Positions 25,758 through 33,968 of a stretch of 64,000 bases of DNA are shown one piece after another; positions within the stretch are counted from its first letter, which is position 1, and the number at the start of each line of letters is the position of its first letter. This DNA is from Sphingobacteriales bacterium 46-32. GTDB lineage: Bacteria > Bacteroidota > Bacteroidia > Chitinophagales > Chitinophagaceae. The stretch lies in assembly GCA_001898485.1 (NCBI GenBank), contig MKTY01000008.1:62001-126000 (forward strand). The letters run 5' to 3'. The notes under the pieces are model-generated. The model saw only the letters and a list, made by a program, of their open reading frames with translations. It had not been told where the DNA came from and did no database searches. The position numbers were made by a program, and so were the translations under genes.

Positions 25758-26528
25758 TCAGGCCAGCACCGTACGCACAAACTGCTGTGCGTCTTTTACC
25801 TCATTGTCACTGTTTTCAAGGGCCTGTACAAAAGCGCTGCCAATGATGGCGCCGTTGGCATGGAGGCAGGCCGCATCAAAACTGGCTTTATCGCGTATAC
25901 CAAAGCCTACCAATACGGGATTTTTCAGCTGCATCTGCTGCAGTCGCCGGAGGTAGGCAGCCACCGCATTCATATCCTTGTCTGTACCGGTTGTGGAAGA
26001 AGATGAAACCGCATAGAGAAAACCACTGCTCAGGCTATCCAGCCGGCGCAACCTAACCGGATCAGTTTCGGGTGTCACCAGGAATATGAAGTCAAGTCCG
26101 TGTTTTTTTATTATTGCTCCGTAGATTGTTTCGAATTCATATTCGGGAAGATCCGGAAGGATAAGCCCATCAACACCTACTGTAGCAGCATCGGCACAAA
26201 ATCGTTCAAAGCCGTATTGCAATACCGGGTTCATGTACCCCATAAGTACAATGGGAATATGAACGGTTCTGCGCAATTCGCGGAGCTGCTGAAATAAACG
26301 CTCCATCGTCATTCCATTTTCTAATGCAATGGTACTGCTATGCTGAATCACCGGGCCATCGGCCAGCGGATCGCTATAAGGCATACCCAACTCTGCCATA
26401 TCGGCCCCGGCTTCCTGTACCGCCTCCAGTACTTTGAGAGTACTGTCTGCATGCGGATAACCGGCTGTACAGTAAATATTCAATACGCGTTCTTTCTTTT
26501 GCGCAAATAACTGTTGTAAACGGCTCAT
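25758..26528 (-). CDS. trpA: Tryptophan synthase alpha subunit
   Basis: Cleaves indole-3-glycerol phosphate to indole, which is channelled to TrpB. 256 residues, a TIM barrel. The catalytic pair E46 (DMAELGMPYSDP) and D57 (LADGPVIQ) is present. The phosphate-binding loops are near GFGI and the C-terminal NGAIIGSAFV. Last gene of the trp operon. It is separated from trpB by a small lipoprotein gene, which is unusual because trpB and trpA normally adjoin. Confidence 0.97.
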   Translation of the reverse strand: MSRLQQLFAQKKERVLNIYCTAGYPHADSTLKVLEAVQEAGADMAELGMPYSDPLADGPVIQHSSTIALENGMTMERLFQQLRELRRTVHIPIVLMGYMNPVLQYGFERFCADAATVGVDGLILPDLPEYEFETIYGAIIKKHGLDFIFLVTPETDPVRLRRLDSLSSGFLYAVSSSSTTGTDKDMNAVAAYLRRLQQMQLKNPVLVGFGIRDKASFDAACLHANGAIIGSAFVQALENSDNEVKDAQQFVRTVLA

Positions 26529-26541
26529 GATACTTGTAAGA

Positions 26542-26910
26542 TTAATAGTCTTCCCGGGTCATGGGAAATGTGTTGTCATCAATAGTAATGAATCGATATG
26601 CCGGATAGCTGTCTATATCGAGGATCACATCAAATGTTGCCAGCGGAGCTGTTGCTCCTTTTGTATCAAAACGTACCACTACGGTATCACCTTTTCTTTC
26701 TGCAATTACCCGGCGCTGCTTTTCATCATCGGGCAGGCACTTCTGAAATTCAAAACGTTCGCCACCTATATTCGATATACTGCGCATGGCAGCGCTTACT
26801 GAGGCGCATCCGTCTGCCACTCTCGACAACTTTACTTTACTGGTCACATATTCATCGCGGTTACACGCGCAAAGAATTACAACAAAAGCAAAAAAGAAGA
26901 TAAATTTCAT
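26542..26910 (-). CDS. Small lipoprotein inserted between trpB and trpA
   Basis: 122 residues. Lipoprotein signal: hydrophobic MKFIFFFAFVVILCAC with the lipid Cys at about residue 16 and N, R, D following. The mature domain has two Cys (ADGCASV and FQKCLPDD) and beta-rich segments (DTVVVRFDTKG, ATFDVILDIDSYPAYRFITI). It follows trpB by 7 bp and precedes trpA by 13 bp on the same strand, so it must be co-transcribed and share trp attenuation. No known tryptophan-related function; I do not recognise a family. Confidence 0.8.
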   Translation of the reverse strand: MKFIFFFAFVVILCACNRDEYVTSKVKLSRVADGCASVSAAMRSISNIGGERFEFQKCLPDDEKQRRVIAERKGDTVVVRFDTKGATAPLATFDVILDIDSYPAYRFITIDDNTFPMTREDY

Positions 26911-26917
26911 GCAGGGC

Positions 26918-28120
26918 TCATTTTATGAATTGCATATATGTAGCCAGGTCTTTATCGCCACGGCCGCTCAGGCAAACCACCACCTTATCGCTGTCTGTAA
27001 ATTTCAGCTGATGCAGCGCCGCCAGCGCATGTGAACTTTCGAGGGCGGGAATGATACCTTCCAGCCGGGCCAGTTCAAAGGCGGCATCCACTGCTTCCTG
27101 GTCGGTAGCGCTAAGAAAACGGGCCCGGCCGGATACGAATAAATGCGCATGCAGCGGACCAATACCAGGATAGTCGAGGCCGGCCGAAATACTATGCGGT
27201 TCCACCACTTGTCCGTCTGCGGTTTGCATTACCAGGCTTTTGCTGCCATGCAGAATACCCGGACGACCCAGTTGTGAAGTAGCAGCAGTGTGTCCGCTAT
27301 TGACGCCCAACCCGGCGGCTTCTACAGCAACCAGTTGTACGGCCGGCTCATCAAGGAAATGATAAAATGCACCGGCTGCATTACTACCACCGCCCACGCA
27401 GGCCAGCACATGTGTAGGCAATTCGCTGCCCGTTTTTTCTTCAAGCTGCCACCGTATCTCTTCACTGATCACCGACTGAAAACGGGCTACCATATCCGGG
27501 TAAGGATGTGGTCCCACCACGCTGCCAATGATATAGTGTGTATCGGCCGGATGATTGATCCAGTCGCGTATAGCTTCATTCGTAGCATCTTTCAGTGTTT
27601 TGCTGCCCGATGTAGCGGCTACCACCGTAGCGCCAAGCATTTTCATACGTGCTACATTGGGCGCCTGGCGTTCGATATCTTTTTCGCCCATGTATACAAT
27701 ACAGTTGAGTCCTTTGAGCGCGCAAACAGTGGCAGTAGCCACACCATGTTGCCCCGCTCCTGTTTCTGCAATGATCCTTTTTTTACCCAGACGTTGCGCC
27801 AGTAAGATCTGACCAATGGTATTATTGATTTTATGCGCTCCGGTATGGCACAGGTCTTCCCGTTTAAGGTAAACAGCAGTACCATGCTTTTCGCTTAACC
27901 GCTGTGCCAGGTAAAGTGGTGTGGGGCGTCCGGCATAATCTTTCAGCAATTGCCTGAATTCAGCCACAAAACCGGGATCCTTGATGATATCGAGATAGCG
28001 TGAACGCAGATCTTCTACGTTGCCATACAGCATTTCCGGAATGAATGCGCCGCCAAACTCTCCATAATAGCCACGCTCGCTGGGCGATGTATAACCGGTT
28101 GTTGATTGTTGTGTTTCCAT
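26918..28120 (-). CDS. trpB: Tryptophan synthase beta subunit
   Basis: PLP enzyme that condenses indole with serine to tryptophan. 400 residues, TrpB1 type. The N-terminal [15 protein letters not shown] is characteristic. The PLP lysine K97 lies in HTGAHKINN, the substrate loop in [11 protein letters not shown] and the phosphate-binding loop in [10 protein letters not shown]. The C-terminal CLSGRGDKD is also present. In the trp operon between trpF (44 bp upstream) and the lipoprotein gene. Confidence 0.98.
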
Positions 28121-28164
28121 GTCTCCTGTCTGCGACAGGTAATCTGTTTGCAGATTTCCCTGTA

Positions 28165-28848
28165 CTATTTTTCTTTTAGTTTTTGTACAAATTCGGCCAC
28201 CCGGGTCATATCCTTTACACCTGCACTGACCTCAAAGCGGCTATTGATATCAACGGAGAATAATCGTTTTCCGGCTTCTTCCGCTGCAAAGTCGCGCAGC
28301 GTATCCTCATCGCCGGGTTCTATTCCTCCGCTCAGAAAAAACAATTTATCCAGCTGCGCTTCCCGCAGCACGGTCCAGTCGAATTTTTTTCCCGTACCTC
28401 CATATCCTGCACCCATGGTATCGAACATAAACATATCGGAGCTGTCATGATACGGGCGTGTAATCCATTCTATAGGATCATTGTCTGACAACCGAAATGC
28501 CTTGATCACAGTTACATAATTGGCCACTTTTTCGCAGAAGAAAGCTGACTCATCGCCATGCAGCTGCACCATATCGAGCCGGTAGTCTTCCACCGTACGC
28601 ATCAGCTCCTCGTACGGTGCATTCACAAATACGCCTACTTTGGCAATCCTGCCCCTGATCTGCCGCATTTTCTGAGGCGATATCTTTTGCGCCATATAGC
28701 GTGGCGATTTGGGATAAAAGATAAAGCCGGCAAAATCGACTCCCATATCATCGAGTGCATTTACCTGCTCGGGCAATGTCATGCCGCATACTTTGATGCG
28801 CATTGCCGATCGGGGGCGTGCAGCCGGAATGCTTGTGTTCTCCTGCAT
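28165..28848 (-). CDS. trpF: Phosphoribosylanthranilate isomerase
   Basis: Amadori isomerase of tryptophan synthesis. 227 residues as drawn. The family motif MRIKVCGMT begins 15 codons inside, so the start may instead be the ATG at 28803; neither start has a strong Shine-Dalgarno. Catalytic Cys in KVCGMT, general-acid Asp in [19 protein letters not shown], and the ligand loop [12 protein letters not shown] stand-alone gene, not fused to trpC as in enterobacteria. Confidence 0.95.
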
Positions 28849-28885
28849 AATTATACCAGTTTTATGATGAACTGGCCTGCAATCG

Positions 28886-29695
28886 TTAATAAGTGTGTTG
28901 CGCTATACGCAGTTTTTCTACAAACGTTTCGAAGGCAATACCGGGCTCCGGTTCTTTCATGAAGTTTTCACCTATAAGAAATCCGCTGAAGCCGGCCTGT
29001 CTTAAAGTTACGATCGTTTCTACATTACTGATGCCGCTCTCAGCCACCGCCACTTTATCTGTTGGGATTTTGTTGATAAGCTGCAGCGAAGTATTAATAT
29101 CCACCTCAAATGTTTTAAGGTTACGGTTATTCACACCTACCATATCTACTTCATCGCAGATATGATCCAGCTCTTCTTCATTATGTATTTCCAGCAATAC
29201 CTCCAGCCCGATAGTGCGTGCAAAAATGGCCATCTCCTTTACTTCACGAGGCGAAAGACAGGCTGCAATAAGCAGGATTACATCTGCACCGAAAGCGCGG
29301 GCTTCTGCTATCTGCCAGGGATCGATCATAAAATCCTTGCGCAATACCGGTATATCAGAGATCACTTTAGCCTGGATAAGATCATCGAGGTCTCCGCCGA
29401 AAAACTGCTGATCGGTAAGGATCGACATACCCGCTGCGCCTTTATCATTATAAGCTCTTACCACCGGTTCTACTTCCAGTTCTTTCGGTTTAAACCAGCC
29501 TTTGCTGGGGCTTTTTCGTTTAAACTCGGCAATGATACCACTGCTGCCCGGCACGAGCAGATAGTCGCGCAGTGAGCGTGTCGCCACCTCCCAGAAAAAA
29601 CCTTCGCGCCGGAAACGTTCAATACTGCTTAGTGGTTTGAGCGCTTCAATCTCTTTTCGCTTTTGCGCTACTATCGTATCAAGGATATTACTCAT
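28886..29695 (-). CDS. trpC: Indole-3-glycerol-phosphate synthase
   Basis: TIM-barrel enzyme that closes the indole ring. 269 residues. The catalytic lysines lie in IAEFKRKSPSKG (about residue 57) and VLRKDFMID; glutamates in LEVLLEIHNEEE and VAESGIS; Asn in GVNNRNL. Its start overlaps the trpD stop by 4 bp, indicating translational coupling. Confidence 0.97.
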   Translation of the reverse strand: MSNILDTIVAQKRKEIEALKPLSSIERFRREGFFWEVATRSLRDYLLVPGSSGIIAEFKRKSPSKGWFKPKELEVEPVVRAYNDKGAAGMSILTDQQFFGGDLDDLIQAKVISDIPVLRKDFMIDPWQIAEARAFGADVILLIAACLSPREVKEMAIFARTIGLEVLLEIHNEEELDHICDEVDMVGVNNRNLKTFEVDINTSLQLINKIPTDKVAVAESGISNVETIVTLRQAGFSGFLIGENFMKEPEPGIAFETFVEKLRIAQHTY

Positions 29696-30684
29696 TGTAA
29701 ACTCAACAGTTTTTTAAGTGAAGCATATGCGCGACCACTTTCATGGCTTTCCACTGCCGCAAGATAAGCATCTTCATAGCTGGAATATCCTCCTGTACTG
29801 AATAAGGCCATCGCAGCATTGGCCAGTACTACGGCGTGCTGCGCCCAGGTACCCTCGCCCTTAATTACCTGCAGGAAAATATCTGCCGCCTGCTCCACGC
29901 TAGTGCCGCCATAAATATCTGCCGGATATACCATCCGCTTGCCCAGCTGTTCGGGAGTCATAATCTTTTCACCGGCGCGGGTGATTACCTTAGTATCGTT
30001 TGTAAGTGATATCTCATCGTACCCGTCAAGACTATGAATGATAGTAAATGCGGTGTCTGTTTCCTGCAGCAGGTAATTATATACCCGCGCCATCTCGAGG
30101 CTATACACACCAACCAGCTGATATTTCGGATTACTCGGATTCACCATAGGTCCCAGCATATTGAAGAACGTACGCATGCCCAGGTTGCGGCGGATCGGGG
30201 CCACCGTGCGAAGTGCCGGATGAAACAGAGGGGCGTGCAGAAAACAGAAACCGGCCTCATCTACCTCTCGTTGCAAAGCAGCTGTATCATTTTTGAACTT
30301 ATAACCCAGTTGTTCCATTACATTGGATGCACCGCTCACAGAAGACGCTCCATAGTTGCCATGCTTTGTCACTTTCTGTCCCGCACCCGCCACAATAAAG
30401 CAGGCGAGAGTAGAAATATTGAATGTATCTTTCCCATCGCCACCTGTACCTACGATGTCAAGCGTATCGTATCCCGTAACGGGAAGCGGCACACATAGTT
30501 CGAGCAACGCATCCCGGAAACCGTGCAATTCTTCGATAGTAATGCTGCGCATCAAAAAAGCGGTCATAAATGCGGTCACCTCATGTTCATTATAAACACC
30601 CCGGCCTATATTTACCAGCACGTCCTTTGCAGCAGCCCTGCTGAGGGTCTTATGTTCAAATAAAAGGGTCAGTATTTTTTTCAT
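29692..30684 (-). CDS. trpD: Anthranilate phosphoribosyltransferase
   Basis: Transfers phosphoribose from PRPP to anthranilate. 330 residues. PRPP-binding GTGGDGKDTFNIST (about 81-94), KHGNYGASSVSGASN, and the anthranilate-side motif FHPALRTVAPIRRNLGMRTFFN are all seen. A separate protein, not fused to TrpG. Ends in a 4-bp overlap with trpC. Confidence 0.97.
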   Translation of the reverse strand: MKKILTLLFEHKTLSRAAAKDVLVNIGRGVYNEHEVTAFMTAFLMRSITIEELHGFRDALLELCVPLPVTGYDTLDIVGTGGDGKDTFNISTLACFIVAGAGQKVTKHGNYGASSVSGASNVMEQLGYKFKNDTAALQREVDEAGFCFLHAPLFHPALRTVAPIRRNLGMRTFFNMLGPMVNPSNPKYQLVGVYSLEMARVYNYLLQETDTAFTIIHSLDGYDEISLTNDTKVITRAGEKIMTPEQLGKRMVYPADIYGGTSVEQAADIFLQVIKGEGTWAQHAVVLANAAMALFSTGGYSSYEDAYLAAVESHESGRAYASLKKLLSLQ

Positions 30685-30731
30685 ATTCCGAGTTCTCTTT
30701 TTCTTTTAATATTCATTCAACACCGCCTTAT

Positions 30732-31316
30732 TTATTGCTGCAGCCAGTTACGAAGCATTTTTTCGCCTTGTGGAGTAAGTACACTTTCGGGGTGAAACTG
30801 CACCCCCTGCACATCGTATTTACGATGCCTCAGTGCCATTATATATCCGTTTGAATCGCGGGCGGTGATTTCCAGTTCGGCCGGAAAATCTTCTTCCGCC
30901 ACTACCCAGCTATGATAACGCCCGACTTCCAGTTCGGGAGCAAGGCCATCGAGTAAAGAAGGGAAATTGCCGGGTACCAAACCACTTACCTGCTGAATGG
31001 GCGTAGCGACCCCATGGTATACCGTAGAGAGGTTGACCAGTTTGCCGCCAAAAGCCTGTCCGATTGCCTGATGTCCCAGGCATACGCCCAGTATCGATTT
31101 TACCGCCGCATATTCTTTAATCAATGGCAGCAGCAGGCCGGCTTCTTCGGGAATACCAGGACCCGGTGAAAGAATGATTTTGTCGTATGCGGCAACATTA
31201 TCCAGCGCTATCTGATCGTTGCGGCAGACATCTACCCGCTGATGCAGGATTTTTTCTACCAGGTGCACCAGGTTGTAGGTAAAAGAGTCGTAATTGTCGA
31301 ATACTAATATTTTCAC
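30732..31316 (-). CDS. trpG: Anthranilate synthase component II (glutamine amidotransferase)
   Basis: Supplies ammonia from glutamine to TrpE. Start chosen at a GTG (31316), so the protein begins VKILVFDNYDSFTYN, the standard TrpG/PabA N-terminus. An ATG at 31352 in the same frame would add 12 unrelated residues and overlap trpE. About 194 residues. Class I triad: C79 in GVCLGHQAIG, H175 and E177 in QFHPES. It could also serve folate synthesis as PabA, as in other bacteria with a single amidotransferase; no pabB is seen here. Confidence 0.95.
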   Translation of the reverse strand: MKILVFDNYDSFTYNLVHLVEKILHQRVDVCRNDQIALDNVAAYDKIILSPGPGIPEEAGLLLPLIKEYAAVKSILGVCLGHQAIGQAFGGKLVNLSTVYHGVATPIQQVSGLVPGNFPSLLDGLAPELEVGRYHSWVVAEEDFPAELEITARDSNGYIMALRHRKYDVQGVQFHPESVLTPQGEKMLRNWLQQ

Positions 31317-31341
31317 AGCACGATTATTTCCGGTAATATGA

Positions 31342-32763
31342 TTAACGCACATCCTCGCCCAGTTGAATAGCTTTTTTGAGTGCGCCGAGTTTATTGTTTA
31401 CTTCCTGTAGTTCGTTTTCAGGCTGACTGGCCGCTACCACTCCGGCACCTGCCTGGTAAGTCAGCGTATTGAGGCGGCTCAGGATGGTACGGATCATAAT
31501 GGCATGTACACAACTGCCATCAAAACCGATGAAGCCCAGGGCGCCACCATAAAAGCTGCGTGCGGTAGGCTCCAGTTCATCAATACGTTCCATTGCCCTG
31601 AACTTTGGCGCGCCGCTCAATGTGCCGGCGGGGAAAGTTTTGGCCAGCAGTGCAAAGGGATTGCTGCCGGGTCGAACACTTCCTGTCACTTCACTCACCA
31701 TATGAATCACATGTGAGTAATACTGAATTTGCTTATAGCGGGCCACCTCCACATCATCACAAAGACGGCTGAGGTCGTTGCGTGCCAGGTCTACCAACAT
31801 TACATGCTCTGCATTTTCTTTGGCATCCTGTAGCAACCGTTCTGTTTCGAGGCGGTCAACTGCATCATCGCCGCTACGCCTGAATGTTCCGGCAATAGGA
31901 TGCACGACTGCTTTGCCGTCGTGAATGAGTATCTGAGCTTCAGGCGATGAACCCATCAGTTTGTAGTCACCATAATCAAAAAAGAAAAGATAGGGCGAGG
32001 GATTTACACTCCTTAATGCACGGTACACATTAAACTCATCACCGGCAAATGCCTGCTGAAAACGCCGGCTAAGCACAATCTGAAAAACATCACCCCGCAT
32101 ACAGCTGCTGATACCGCTTTTGACCATCTGGCGGTACTCCTCATCGGTCATGTTAGACGATTCACTGCCTTTTACCTGAAACGGATATACCGGCACATCC
32201 CTGCTTCTTATCAGCGATTCGAGCAGGGTGCGCTCGCTCTCCATTTCCCCTACCCTGTTTTCACAGATAAACAATTCGTCTTTGAAATGATTAAATGCGA
32301 TCACATACTGATAGAGCCGGTAGCGCATGAGCGGTATGGGTGTGGCTGTATCCTTCTTCTTATCCTTTAAGTGAATGGTTTCAAAAAAGCGAACGGCATC
32401 ATAAGTAGTATATCCATACAAACCCTGGCCAAATCTTGCTTCGCGGCTGCCATCTGTTTTGGCATCGAAACGCTGCATATAATTCCACAGCAATGCCGGC
32501 ACATCGGTATCTGCTTTCAGTGTCTGACGACGGGGGGGCTGACCGGGTATTTTATATTCTACTTCTTCCGCATTGCGTATCTCCATGCCGCCAATGGCAT
32601 TGATACAAATAAATGAATAACTGTTTTCTGCCAGATGGTGATCGGTGCTCTCCAGCAGAATGGTATCCCTGAACCGGTCGCGCAGGCGCAGATAAATACC
32701 TACCGGGGTATATACATCTGCCAGCATGCGGCTACAGGAAGTAAATAACTCAATTTTATTCAT
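31342..32763 (-). CDS. trpE: Anthranilate synthase component I
   Basis: Converts chorismate to anthranilate, the first and feedback-inhibited step. 473 residues from ATG 32763, chosen because AAAGGAA precedes it at suitable spacing; a longer frame begins with a TTG inside the attenuator. The allosteric site LLESTDHHLAENSYSFI lies near the N-terminus. Chorismate-binding motifs are QIVLSRRFQQ, PSPYLFFFDYG, LMGSSPEAQI, HPIAGTFRRSG, HVMLVDLARNDL and FPAGTLSGAPKFRAMERI. First enzyme gene after the trp leader. Confidence 0.97.
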   Translation of the reverse strand: MNKIELFTSCSRMLADVYTPVGIYLRLRDRFRDTILLESTDHHLAENSYSFICINAIGGMEIRNAEEVEYKIPGQPPRRQTLKADTDVPALLWNYMQRFDAKTDGSREARFGQGLYGYTTYDAVRFFETIHLKDKKKDTATPIPLMRYRLYQYVIAFNHFKDELFICENRVGEMESERTLLESLIRSRDVPVYPFQVKGSESSNMTDEEYRQMVKSGISSCMRGDVFQIVLSRRFQQAFAGDEFNVYRALRSVNPSPYLFFFDYGDYKLMGSSPEAQILIHDGKAVVHPIAGTFRRSGDDAVDRLETERLLQDAKENAEHVMLVDLARNDLSRLCDDVEVARYKQIQYYSHVIHMVSEVTGSVRPGSNPFALLAKTFPAGTLSGAPKFRAMERIDELEPTARSFYGGALGFIGFDGSCVHAIMIRTILSRLNTLTYQAGAGVVAASQPENELQEVNNKLGALKKAIQLGEDVR

Positions 32764-32802
32764 ACAGATCATTTCCTTTAATGCATCCGCCGTGGCGGAT
32801 AT

Positions 32803-32831
32803 AAACAAAAAGCCCCGGATTATTCCGGGGC
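32803..32831 (-). terminator. trp attenuator terminator hairpin
   Basis: On the minus strand GCCCCGGA (32831-32824), loop ATAA and TCCGGGGC (32819-32812) form a perfect 8-bp stem followed by CTTTTTGTTT. It lies between the trp leader peptide and trpE. The 5' arm can instead pair with CCGGGGUU at codons 17-19 of the leader, giving a mutually exclusive antiterminator. Confidence 0.88.
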
Positions 32832-32861
32832 CTGAATTACTTTATATACAAAGCAATGACA

Positions 32862-32924
32862 TTACAGCAACCCCGGGGATTGTGTATGCCACCACCACTG
32901 AATAGTATTGAATTGTTGTTTCAT
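32862..32924 (-). CDS. trpL: trp operon leader peptide with three consecutive Trp codons
   Basis: A 20-codon reading frame from ATG (32924-32922) to TAA (32864-32862). It starts M-K-Q-Q-F and codons 10-12 are TGG-TGG-TGG; the rest is H-T-Q-S-P-G-L-L. It ends 31 bp before the attenuator hairpin. Codons 17-18 (CCG-GGG) are the strand that can sequester the terminator 5' arm. A ribosome stalled at Trp codons would leave them free; one reaching the stop codon would cover them. This is the classical ribosome-mediated attenuation layout. A candidate promoter lies just upstream. Confidence 0.9.
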   Translation of the reverse strand: MKQQFNTIQWWWHTQSPGLL

Positions 32925-32930
32925 TGTTTG

Positions 32931-32962
32931 CAAATATGAATGCAAAAAAGGAAATCATCAAA
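32931..32962 (-). promoter_or_regulatory. trp operon promoter (TTTG-N20-CATATTTG)
   Basis: On the minus strand TTTG (32962-32959) and CATATTTG (32938-32931) are 20 bp apart; the -7 box matches TAnnTTTG at 7 of 8 positions. The leader ATG begins 6 bp downstream, so the transcript would have an extremely short 5' UTR before trpL. Confidence 0.6.
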
Positions 32963-33389: not shown

Positions 33390-33968
33390 TTATTTCTTTG
33401 TGCCAAAACGATAGCCTATTGTCAGCTGAAGGCCGGTATTTTTGATATCAGCATTGTTGTCTGAAATATCAGTAAGTCCTTTTACAAAGCGCAGATCGGC
33501 CAGGAAACCGTTTTTAAGCTCATACGTAGCTCCCAGCAGCCAGGCAAAATCGCCCCCTTTTAAGTTGTCTTTTACATCCTCCTTATTGCCCATATACTTG
33601 ATTTTGGCAGATGCCAGAAAACCAAGCTGGGGACCTGTATGCAAATGCAGGTTGTTCCATACATTATAGCGAACGGTAATGGGCAGATTAATGTAATTGA
33701 AATCATAGGAGCCTTCTCCTTCTTTGGCGCCCTGCATAGAATAAAGCAGTTCGGATTGCACAGAAAGTTTGGGTTGGATCTGGTAAGTACCCAATGCGCC
33801 AATCACAAGACCTGTTTTGCCTTTCAGTTCATTATCGGCATTCTCAGAAAAATTGGTAACGCCCGCTCCGGCTTTCACGCCCACACTGAACTGTGCGTTT
33901 GCACTCATGGTAAACAGGGAGGCCATCAGCAAGGCCATTGCGGTCACAATAATGGAGATTTTTTTCAT
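33390..33968 (-). CDS. PorT-family outer-membrane beta-barrel protein
   Basis: 192 residues. Signal peptide (MKKISIIVTAMALLMASLFTMSANAQ). The mature barrel has alternating strands: FSVGVKAGAGVTNF, KLSVQSELLYSMQG, YDFNYINLPITVRYNVWNNLHLHTGPQLGF, GFLADLRFVKGLTDI and the terminal LQLTIGYRFGTKK. This is the common Bacteroidota PorT-like outer-membrane fold; no specific role is visible. Similar in size and layout to the protein at 21734. Divergent from the S9 peptidase gene. Confidence 0.9.
   Translation of the reverse strand: MKKISIIVTAMALLMASLFTMSANAQFSVGVKAGAGVTNFSENADNELKGKTGLVIGALGTYQIQPKLSVQSELLYSMQGAKEGEGSYDFNYINLPITVRYNVWNNLHLHTGPQLGFLASAKIKYMGNKEDVKDNLKGGDFAWLLGATYELKNGFLADLRFVKGLTDISDNNADIKNTGLQLTIGYRFGTKK

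Follow-up and report, generated by a model that had tools for sequence, protein, structure and literature searches.

Ahead of trpE in the window, the 64,000-nt stretch of Sphingobacteriales bacterium 46-32 DNA that we analyzed, a minus-strand reading frame of 20 codons with three consecutive tryptophan codons is followed by a GC-rich hairpin. Do these elements together form a switch that responds to tryptophan supply, or do they have another origin and another role? As in a classical trp attenuator, a leader ORF with a Trp run precedes the first trp gene and an intrinsic terminator lies between them. We find that the locus is very probably a ribosome-mediated transcription attenuator that couples trpEGDCFBA expression to charged tRNA-Trp; this account, put forward earlier in a sequence-only reading, is the one best supported by the conserved Trp codons, the pairing and the terminator. 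The features of the locus, with the evidence for each, are:

32931-32962, minus strand: Bacteroidota-type -33/-7 promoter-like pair, TTTG at 32962-32959, a 20-nt spacer and the -7 box CATATTTG at 32938-32931 (sequence)
32862-32924, minus strand: trpL leader ORF, MKQQFNTIQWWWHTQSPGLL and stop (direct reading, recomputation, Chitinophagaceae comparison)
32882-32891, minus strand: 5′ side of the 1:2 (protector) helix, the third Trp codon and CAT ACA C (pair counts in 57 rows, fold)
32869-32876, minus strand: antiterminator strand 2, CCGGGGUU, codons 17-19 (recomputation, permutations, pair counts)
32857-32867, minus strand: 3′ side of the 1:2 helix, around the leader stop codon (pair counts in 57 rows)
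32825-32832, minus strand: strand 3, GGCCCCGG, terminator 5′ arm and partner of strand 2 (pairing computation)
32803-32831, minus strand: intrinsic terminator, GCCCCGG/CCGGGGC hairpin at 32831-32812 and U-tract at 32811-32803 (fold, comparison)
31345-32763, minus strand: trpE, first structural gene, stop codon at 31342-31344 (NCBIfam trpE_most)
25758-31352, minus strand: remainder of the trp operon (ORFs and NCBIfam), comprising the next seven lines
31352-30732, minus strand: trpG (NCBIfam trpG_papA, over the curated cut-off)
30684-29692, minus strand: trpD (NCBIfam trpD, over the curated cut-off)
29695-28886, minus strand: trpC (NCBIfam TrpC, over the curated cut-off)
28848-28165, minus strand: trpF (matches to TrpF models, below their cut-offs)
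28120-26918, minus strand: trpB (NCBIfam trpB, over the curated cut-off)
26910-26542, minus strand: 122-aa ORF between trpB and trpA (ORF list)
26528-25758, minus strand: trpA (NCBIfam trpA, over the curated cut-off)

The trpL frame consists of 20 codons and a TAA stop, with TGG at codons 10-12 (32897-32889, minus strand). Re-reading and recomputation returned the frame at 32924-32862 with its WWW run, the promoter-like TTTG-N20-CATATTTG ending 6 nt ahead of the leader ATG, the perfect GC-rich hairpin with its T-run at 32831-32803 and the pairing of codons 17-19 with the terminator 5′ arm just as the sequence-only reading had given them; its coordinates and pairings are correct save for a single base, in that the gap between the leader stop and the hairpin exists as claimed and measures 30 nt, not 31. 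Counted from the ATG, the Trp codons occupy nt 28-36, strand 2 nt 49-56, the stop nt 61-63 and strand 3 nt 93-100, and the terminator 3′ arm begins at nt 107. We take the ATG at 32763, 39 nt past the T-run, as the start of trpE; a second in-frame ATG lies at 32772. Against NCBIfam trpE_most the gene scores 404.6 bits (E 5.9e-121), below the curated cut-off of 517.7. The closest named TrpE matches are 60-75% identical, and most are labelled Chitinophagaceae or with the genera Flavihumibacter, Niastella, Sediminibacterium, Terrimonas and Chitinophaga, which we take to belong to that family; the others are labelled just Bacteroidetes or Sphingobacteriales, and one, oddly, Williamsia. The gene order downstream of the leader is trpE-G-D-C-F-B-(122-aa ORF)-A, all on the minus strand. 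The 122-aa ORF has a lipoprotein-like start and returned zero matches in an NCBIfam search at E ≤ 1e-10. Between the terminator and trpE stands a palindrome, ATCCGCC-AC-GGCGGAT (32785-32800, minus strand), whose core TCCGCC-AC-GGCGGA occurs once in the genome; it is possibly an operator or a translation-level hairpin.

The leader RNA has the pairing capacity of a four-strand switch. The terminator hairpin, GCCCCGG-AATAAT-CCGGGGC followed by TTTTTGTTT up to 32803, has a free energy of -17.7 kcal/mol together with a U-rich tail, and strand 2, CCGGGGUU, can pair with strand 3, GGCCCCGG, at eight positions, two of them G-U. The 127-nt leader RNA folds with z = -3.89 against 200 shuffles, and its fold contains a hairpin over the 1:2 stretch. 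Masking nt 1-46 in an RNA that still lacks the 3′ arm gives an antiterminator fold of -19.4 kcal/mol; when nt 1-75 are masked instead, there is no competitor before the 3′ arm appears (-0.8), and the terminator then folds at -18.9. In the complete RNA the terminator is present in all folds run, also under the stalled-ribosome mask of nt 1-46. Consequently, the switch would have to be kinetic, as it is in the classical system. A ribosome usually covers about 15 nt 3′ of its P site, and with this footprint a stall at any of the three Trp codons frees strand 2, while a ribosome at the stop codon covers it. The geometry, the folds and the permutations described below all point to an antiterminator that excludes the terminator, with covariation that is just moderate.

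In the mechanism that we propose, transcription would start at the leader ATG or 1-2 nt ahead of it, and a ribosome would load at the nearly 5′-terminal AUG and translate trpL behind RNA polymerase. When charged tRNA-Trp is scarce, the ribosome would stall at codons 10-12 and cover the 5′ side of the 1:2 helix, leaving strand 2 (nt 49-56) free to pair with strand 3 (nt 93-100) before the terminator 3′ arm exists; polymerase would then continue into trpE. The pairing in this step comes from computation and comparison, and its kinetics we infer. When tryptophan is plentiful, the ribosome would reach the stop at nt 61-63 and cover strand 2, and the 3:4 terminator would form. In the absence of a ribosome, the 1:2 helix would form, and the terminator with it.

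How much of this could arise by chance? Among 5000 dinucleotide shuffles of the window's 400 nt before trpE, none contained a WWW ORF and 260 contained a WW ORF, so the window by itself is suggestive, not overwhelming. A chance origin is excluded by the sequence comparison across Chitinophagaceae. A TrpE search of 117 genomes of the family, the window's own included, gave 86 with a match, and we examined the upstream stretches of all 86 trpE loci, two of them shortened by contig ends. Within 400 nt of trpE, 82 of the 86 carry a WW leader ORF (73 WWW, 9 WW only), and two of the remaining four have a WWW leader farther upstream, for a total of 84/86; the shuffle expectation among 86 loci is 1.75 for WW and 0.05 for WWW. 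The last two, L067 and L082 (genomes G053 and G075), lacked a WW leader in longer upstream stretches, except for a remote TTG-start ORF in L067. A GC-rich terminator-like hairpin stands ahead of trpE in L067, away from any WW leader ORF; the leader may have been lost there, or the sequence may be in error. A hairpin of -9.5 kcal/mol or better plus a U-rich tail follows 81 of the 82 leaders, compared with 2.8% of shuffled stretches. Of 80 named loci, 79 extend far enough upstream to be judged, and 71 of these have a WW leader ORF with an ATG within 600 nt; because some of the named loci are contigs also found in the 86-locus set, they do not form an independent sample.

For the pairing, 17 of the 82 leaders without the shared motif and 3 that failed the T-run rule were set aside, leaving 62, and five more rows were dropped (the near-duplicates L003 and L022 and the divergent L071, L072 and L085), which left 57 aligned rows; L003 was also omitted from the promoter and codon counts, which cover 81 leaders. 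In these 57 rows, which were selected for the shared motif and whose shared descent inflates shuffle and permutation tests, the 1:2 helix (third Trp codon, CAT ACA AA, with UUGUAAUGNCA at the stop) is paired in 86.0% of cells with two-sided changes at 3 of 10 pairs, and the terminator helix 3:4 is paired in 97.8% with two-sided changes at 5 of 7. Jointly, the two helices are paired in 90.7% of cells, against 34-42% after sliding; 8 of their 17 pairs have changed on both sides, in a total of 28 cells, where shuffles give 3.7 pairs and 6.4 cells. The expectation of the sequence-only reading, that Trp codons and hairpin pairing would be kept in relatives, is borne out by these two-sided changes and by the 84 leaders.

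The antiterminator, counted in a single register over the same 57 rows, is paired in 82.5% of cells, against 34-68% when slid, and shows two-sided changes at 3 pairs, and 117 of 500 shuffles show at least as many; the register fits RGL-type leaders and lies about one base off for the SGV type, whose count is therefore low. When strand 2 was paired with its own terminator arm across 78 unique leaders, the energies summed to -1113.0, against -970.0 (sd 20.3) for permuted arms, and 0 of 20000 permutations did as well. The signal is weaker within the 46 RGL-type leaders (29/20000) and absent within the 16 SGV-type leaders (3644/20000), and 16 of 81 leaders have a strand 2 that pairs with its own arm no better than with the mean of swapped arms. 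For the antiterminator the comparative evidence is good, though less strong than for the 1:2 and terminator helices. A striking single case is L066, in which strand 2 reads CGAGGC and the arm GCCUCG where the majority have CGGGG and CCCCG. In L064, L074, L075 and L077 the leader end, CGCTGTG, matches the terminator 3′ arm and loop, CACAGCG, and not the 5′ arm, which suggests an antiterminator that takes the descending arm.

RNAalifold on the 57-row MAFFT alignment recovered the leader hairpin only and missed the terminator, likely because that alignment is gappy and because rows L012, L024, L048 and L066 were ended early by the end rule; pair counts on the named structures were used in its place. 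Model R1, built from the 57 rows and scored on the best 99 candidates in each genome, matched 24 of 40 Chitinophagaceae genomes strongly (E ≤ 2e-11), once in each and at trpE; many of these leaders belong to R1's own alignment, and 30 of the 40 genomes have trpE by the TrpE search. The window's genome has a single R1 match at E ≤ 0.1. A weak second match in G006 lies in a stretch that holds no WW ORF.

Conservation extends upstream to the promoter. In 65 of 81 Chitinophagaceae leaders, compared with 13.0% of shuffles, a -7-like box that agrees with the consensus at 5 or more of its 6 bases has its end 3-9 nt ahead of the leader ATG; the distance is most often 7 nt, and matches peak again at 34-36 nt, which corresponds to the upstream TTTG. 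In F. johnsoniae, PMC6847099 places the start site of probable promoters 4-5 nt after the -7 element, a rule that, combined with the box spacing, predicts a 5′ UTR of 1-2 nt for the window. The trpL transcript is thus probably almost leaderless in Chitinophagaceae, and the near absence of a 5′ UTR, noted from the window's sequence at the outset, would be a conserved feature of the family as judged by promoter-box spacing. Such starts are uncommon in three other members of the phylum: 87% of those F. johnsoniae transcripts have leaders longer than 10 nt (PMC6847099), 5.5% of F. psychrophilum mRNAs are leaderless (PMC9723704), and in B. thetaiotaomicron 5′ UTRs of under 10 nt make up about 3.7% of the total (PMC7366714).

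Could the conserved element act in another way? The TnaC nascent peptide arrests the ribosome with free tryptophan bound, and a nascent TrpL peptide (Asn-x-x-Trp-Trp-Trp) could likewise sense free tryptophan and arrest the ribosome, the arrest then controlling the hairpins. An Asn does stand three residues ahead of the Trp run in 64 of 81 leaders and, being coded by both AAT (53) and AAC (11), looks like the object of selection on the residue. Outside the class, however, it is present in just 6 of 19 leaders that retain the Trp run. Helix 1:2 includes the His and Thr codons that follow the run, and the RGL or SGV end belongs to strand 2 and helix 1:2, so that most of the peptide's conservation is accounted for by RNA pairing. 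With this order of hairpins, moreover, arrest by free tryptophan would raise expression at high tryptophan, which is the wrong sign for a biosynthetic operon. We consider such a peptide sensor very unlikely. As regards the codons themselves, the Asn at -3 falls in none of the counted helices, and the Asn codon two places past the conserved His, AAC in 51 of 53, is also outside them.

A same-strand gene ends at 33390, about 0.5 kb ahead of the leader, and an unregulated terminator might shield trp from upstream transcription, with the ORF incidental. Against this stand the 0 of 5000 shuffles of the region with a WWW run, the co-occurrence of leader and terminator in 81 of 82 loci and the promoter-like box directly ahead of the leader in 65 of 81, which together make simple shielding extremely improbable. 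The plainer combination of a chance ORF and an ordinary terminator was rejected on the shuffles and the conservation. The terminated product would be a nearly leaderless small mRNA of ~120 nt, like rnTrpL of S. meliloti (PMC7298713), and it or its peptide might act mainly in trans, as rnTrpL/peTrpL do, with cis attenuation secondary; but most of the conserved bases are those required in cis, and we give a predominantly trans role little credence. Ribosome-mediated attenuation in cis is the reading that we retain.

How widely does this arrangement extend? The further samples were scored for leader ORFs. In a draw across the phylum, 27 of 29 other Bacteroidia trpE loci have a WW leader with an ATG and the other 2 have WLW; a draw across the order yielded 12 non-family loci, two of them uncounted repeats of earlier genomes, and 9 WW leaders among the other 10. 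Pooled, these further Bacteroidia loci give 36/39. Outside Bacteroidia, where 35 of 104 TrpE matches were chosen to spread across families, 19 of the 35 trpE loci have a WW leader. The shuffle means are 0.10, 0.03 and 0.42 for the sets of 29, 10 and 35 loci, respectively. Other operons carry comparable leaders. HHH leader ORFs lie ahead of hisG in 27 of 30 Chitinophagaceae loci (L206-L235), and the window's genome (L227) has the His leader ORF MQLYIHIHHHHLALSGVGSDGIM, which lies 172 nt upstream of the hisG match, with a hairpin and T-run after it. Ahead of ilvD, a strict rule found Ile/Leu/Val-run ORFs in 11 of 29 Chitinophagaceae loci (L236-L264), of which the one in L255 is probably a chance ORF; in the window's genome (L257) the Ile/Val-run leader ORF MHSGKKHTITGLITAIIIVVVIIIPATHGGGTCM lies 1168 nt before the ilvD match.

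The 84/86, 36/39 and 19/35 loci with WW leaders, set against the 11 of 148 phylum genomes in which the Rfam model RF01692 passes its cut-off, all from one family (f5), indicate that attenuation is likely the default for the trp pathway in a major phylum. A broader proposal, to which we assign even chances of being right or wrong, is that trp leader-peptide attenuation is ancestral and near-universal in Bacteroidota and reaches its sister classes, so that it is not simply gamma-proteobacterial in origin; that reference models miss most examples, since sequences diverge even as the logic persists; and that in Chitinophagaceae the ribosome loads on an almost 5′-terminal AUG. If so, Chitinophagaceae trpL would provide a natural test of how ribosomes initiate on leaderless RNA in a phylum that lacks Shine-Dalgarno sites in its mRNAs and seldom has leaderless ones, and trp leaders would offer a clean example of transcription coupled to translation where Shine-Dalgarno sites are absent. 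The broad set of trp leaders also allows better models to be built.

What stood out to the sequence-only reading was a full attenuator in a Bacteroidota operon, a claim to novelty that is weakened by RF01692 and by two papers on F. psychrophilum (PMC6414381, PMC9723704). RF01692, Bacteroid-trp (Bacteroidete tryptophan peptide leader RNA), is listed in the 2010 paper PMC2864571. The window resembles it in its UGG-UGG-UGG leader ORF, in the pairing around the Trp codons and in a terminator 5′ arm that falls at the end of the model, before trpE, and, like it, places a WWW leader RNA ahead of trpE in a Bacteroidota genome. A search of the window with RF01692 gave no match at E ≤ 10 (gathering cut-off 49 bits). 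None of 60 Chitinophagaceae genomes reaches the cut-off under stricter search filters, and the 17 weak matches in them include 7 directly before trpE. Unlike RF01692, the Chitinophagaceae leaders have the antiterminator core CGGGG/CCCCG, and a -7-like box 3-9 nt before the ATG occurs in 5 of 15 leaders of f5, the family that RF01692 detects, compared with the 65 of 81 in Chitinophagaceae. The F. psychrophilum papers mention the RF01692 element before trp and attenuation-type leaders ahead of amino-acid operons (PMC6414381; PMC9723704), with 5′ elements before hisG and pheA (PMC9723704); these inferred leader-peptide attenuators share the phylum and the kind of operon with the window, but belong to Flavobacteriaceae, not Chitinophagaceae, and to an organism with 5.5% leaderless mRNAs (PMC9723704). 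Searches of an open-access library listed no paper recognized as describing trp leader attenuation for Chitinophagaceae or phylum-wide. Vitreschak 2004, to which PMC2864571 refers, is said to mention Bacteroidetes/Chlorobi in its abstract.

The window stretch has 13 Rfam matches at E ≤ 10, which we take as chance, all being under their gathering scores and many overlapping the terminator alone; one of them is a leader family for another amino acid, Phe_leader, at 20.7 of 55 bits, and RF00513, Trp_leader (gathering cut-off 41 bits), is not among the 13. In three Chitinophagaceae relatives RF00513 has sub-threshold matches of 24.6-32.0 bits, against the same cut-off of 41. The E. coli trp attenuator described by RF00513 has its Trp codons in strand 1, a 2:3 antiterminator and a 3:4 terminator, and this four-strand logic is common to the window. 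The E. coli leader differs in having WW in place of WWW, a Shine-Dalgarno site and a longer 5′ UTR, whereas the window has a promoter-like pair of the sigma-ABfr type. The precedent for a leaderless trpL is S. meliloti rnTrpL: by the description in PMC7298713, trpLE(G) resembles the window in its run of Trp codons and in an RNA that starts at the trpL ATG, and differs in a peptide of 14 aa with known trans roles, against the 20-codon trpL. The kind of element is known, and the window's member of it is divergent; what is added here is its breadth beyond the reference model, a probable near-leaderless start, and the his and ilv leaders.
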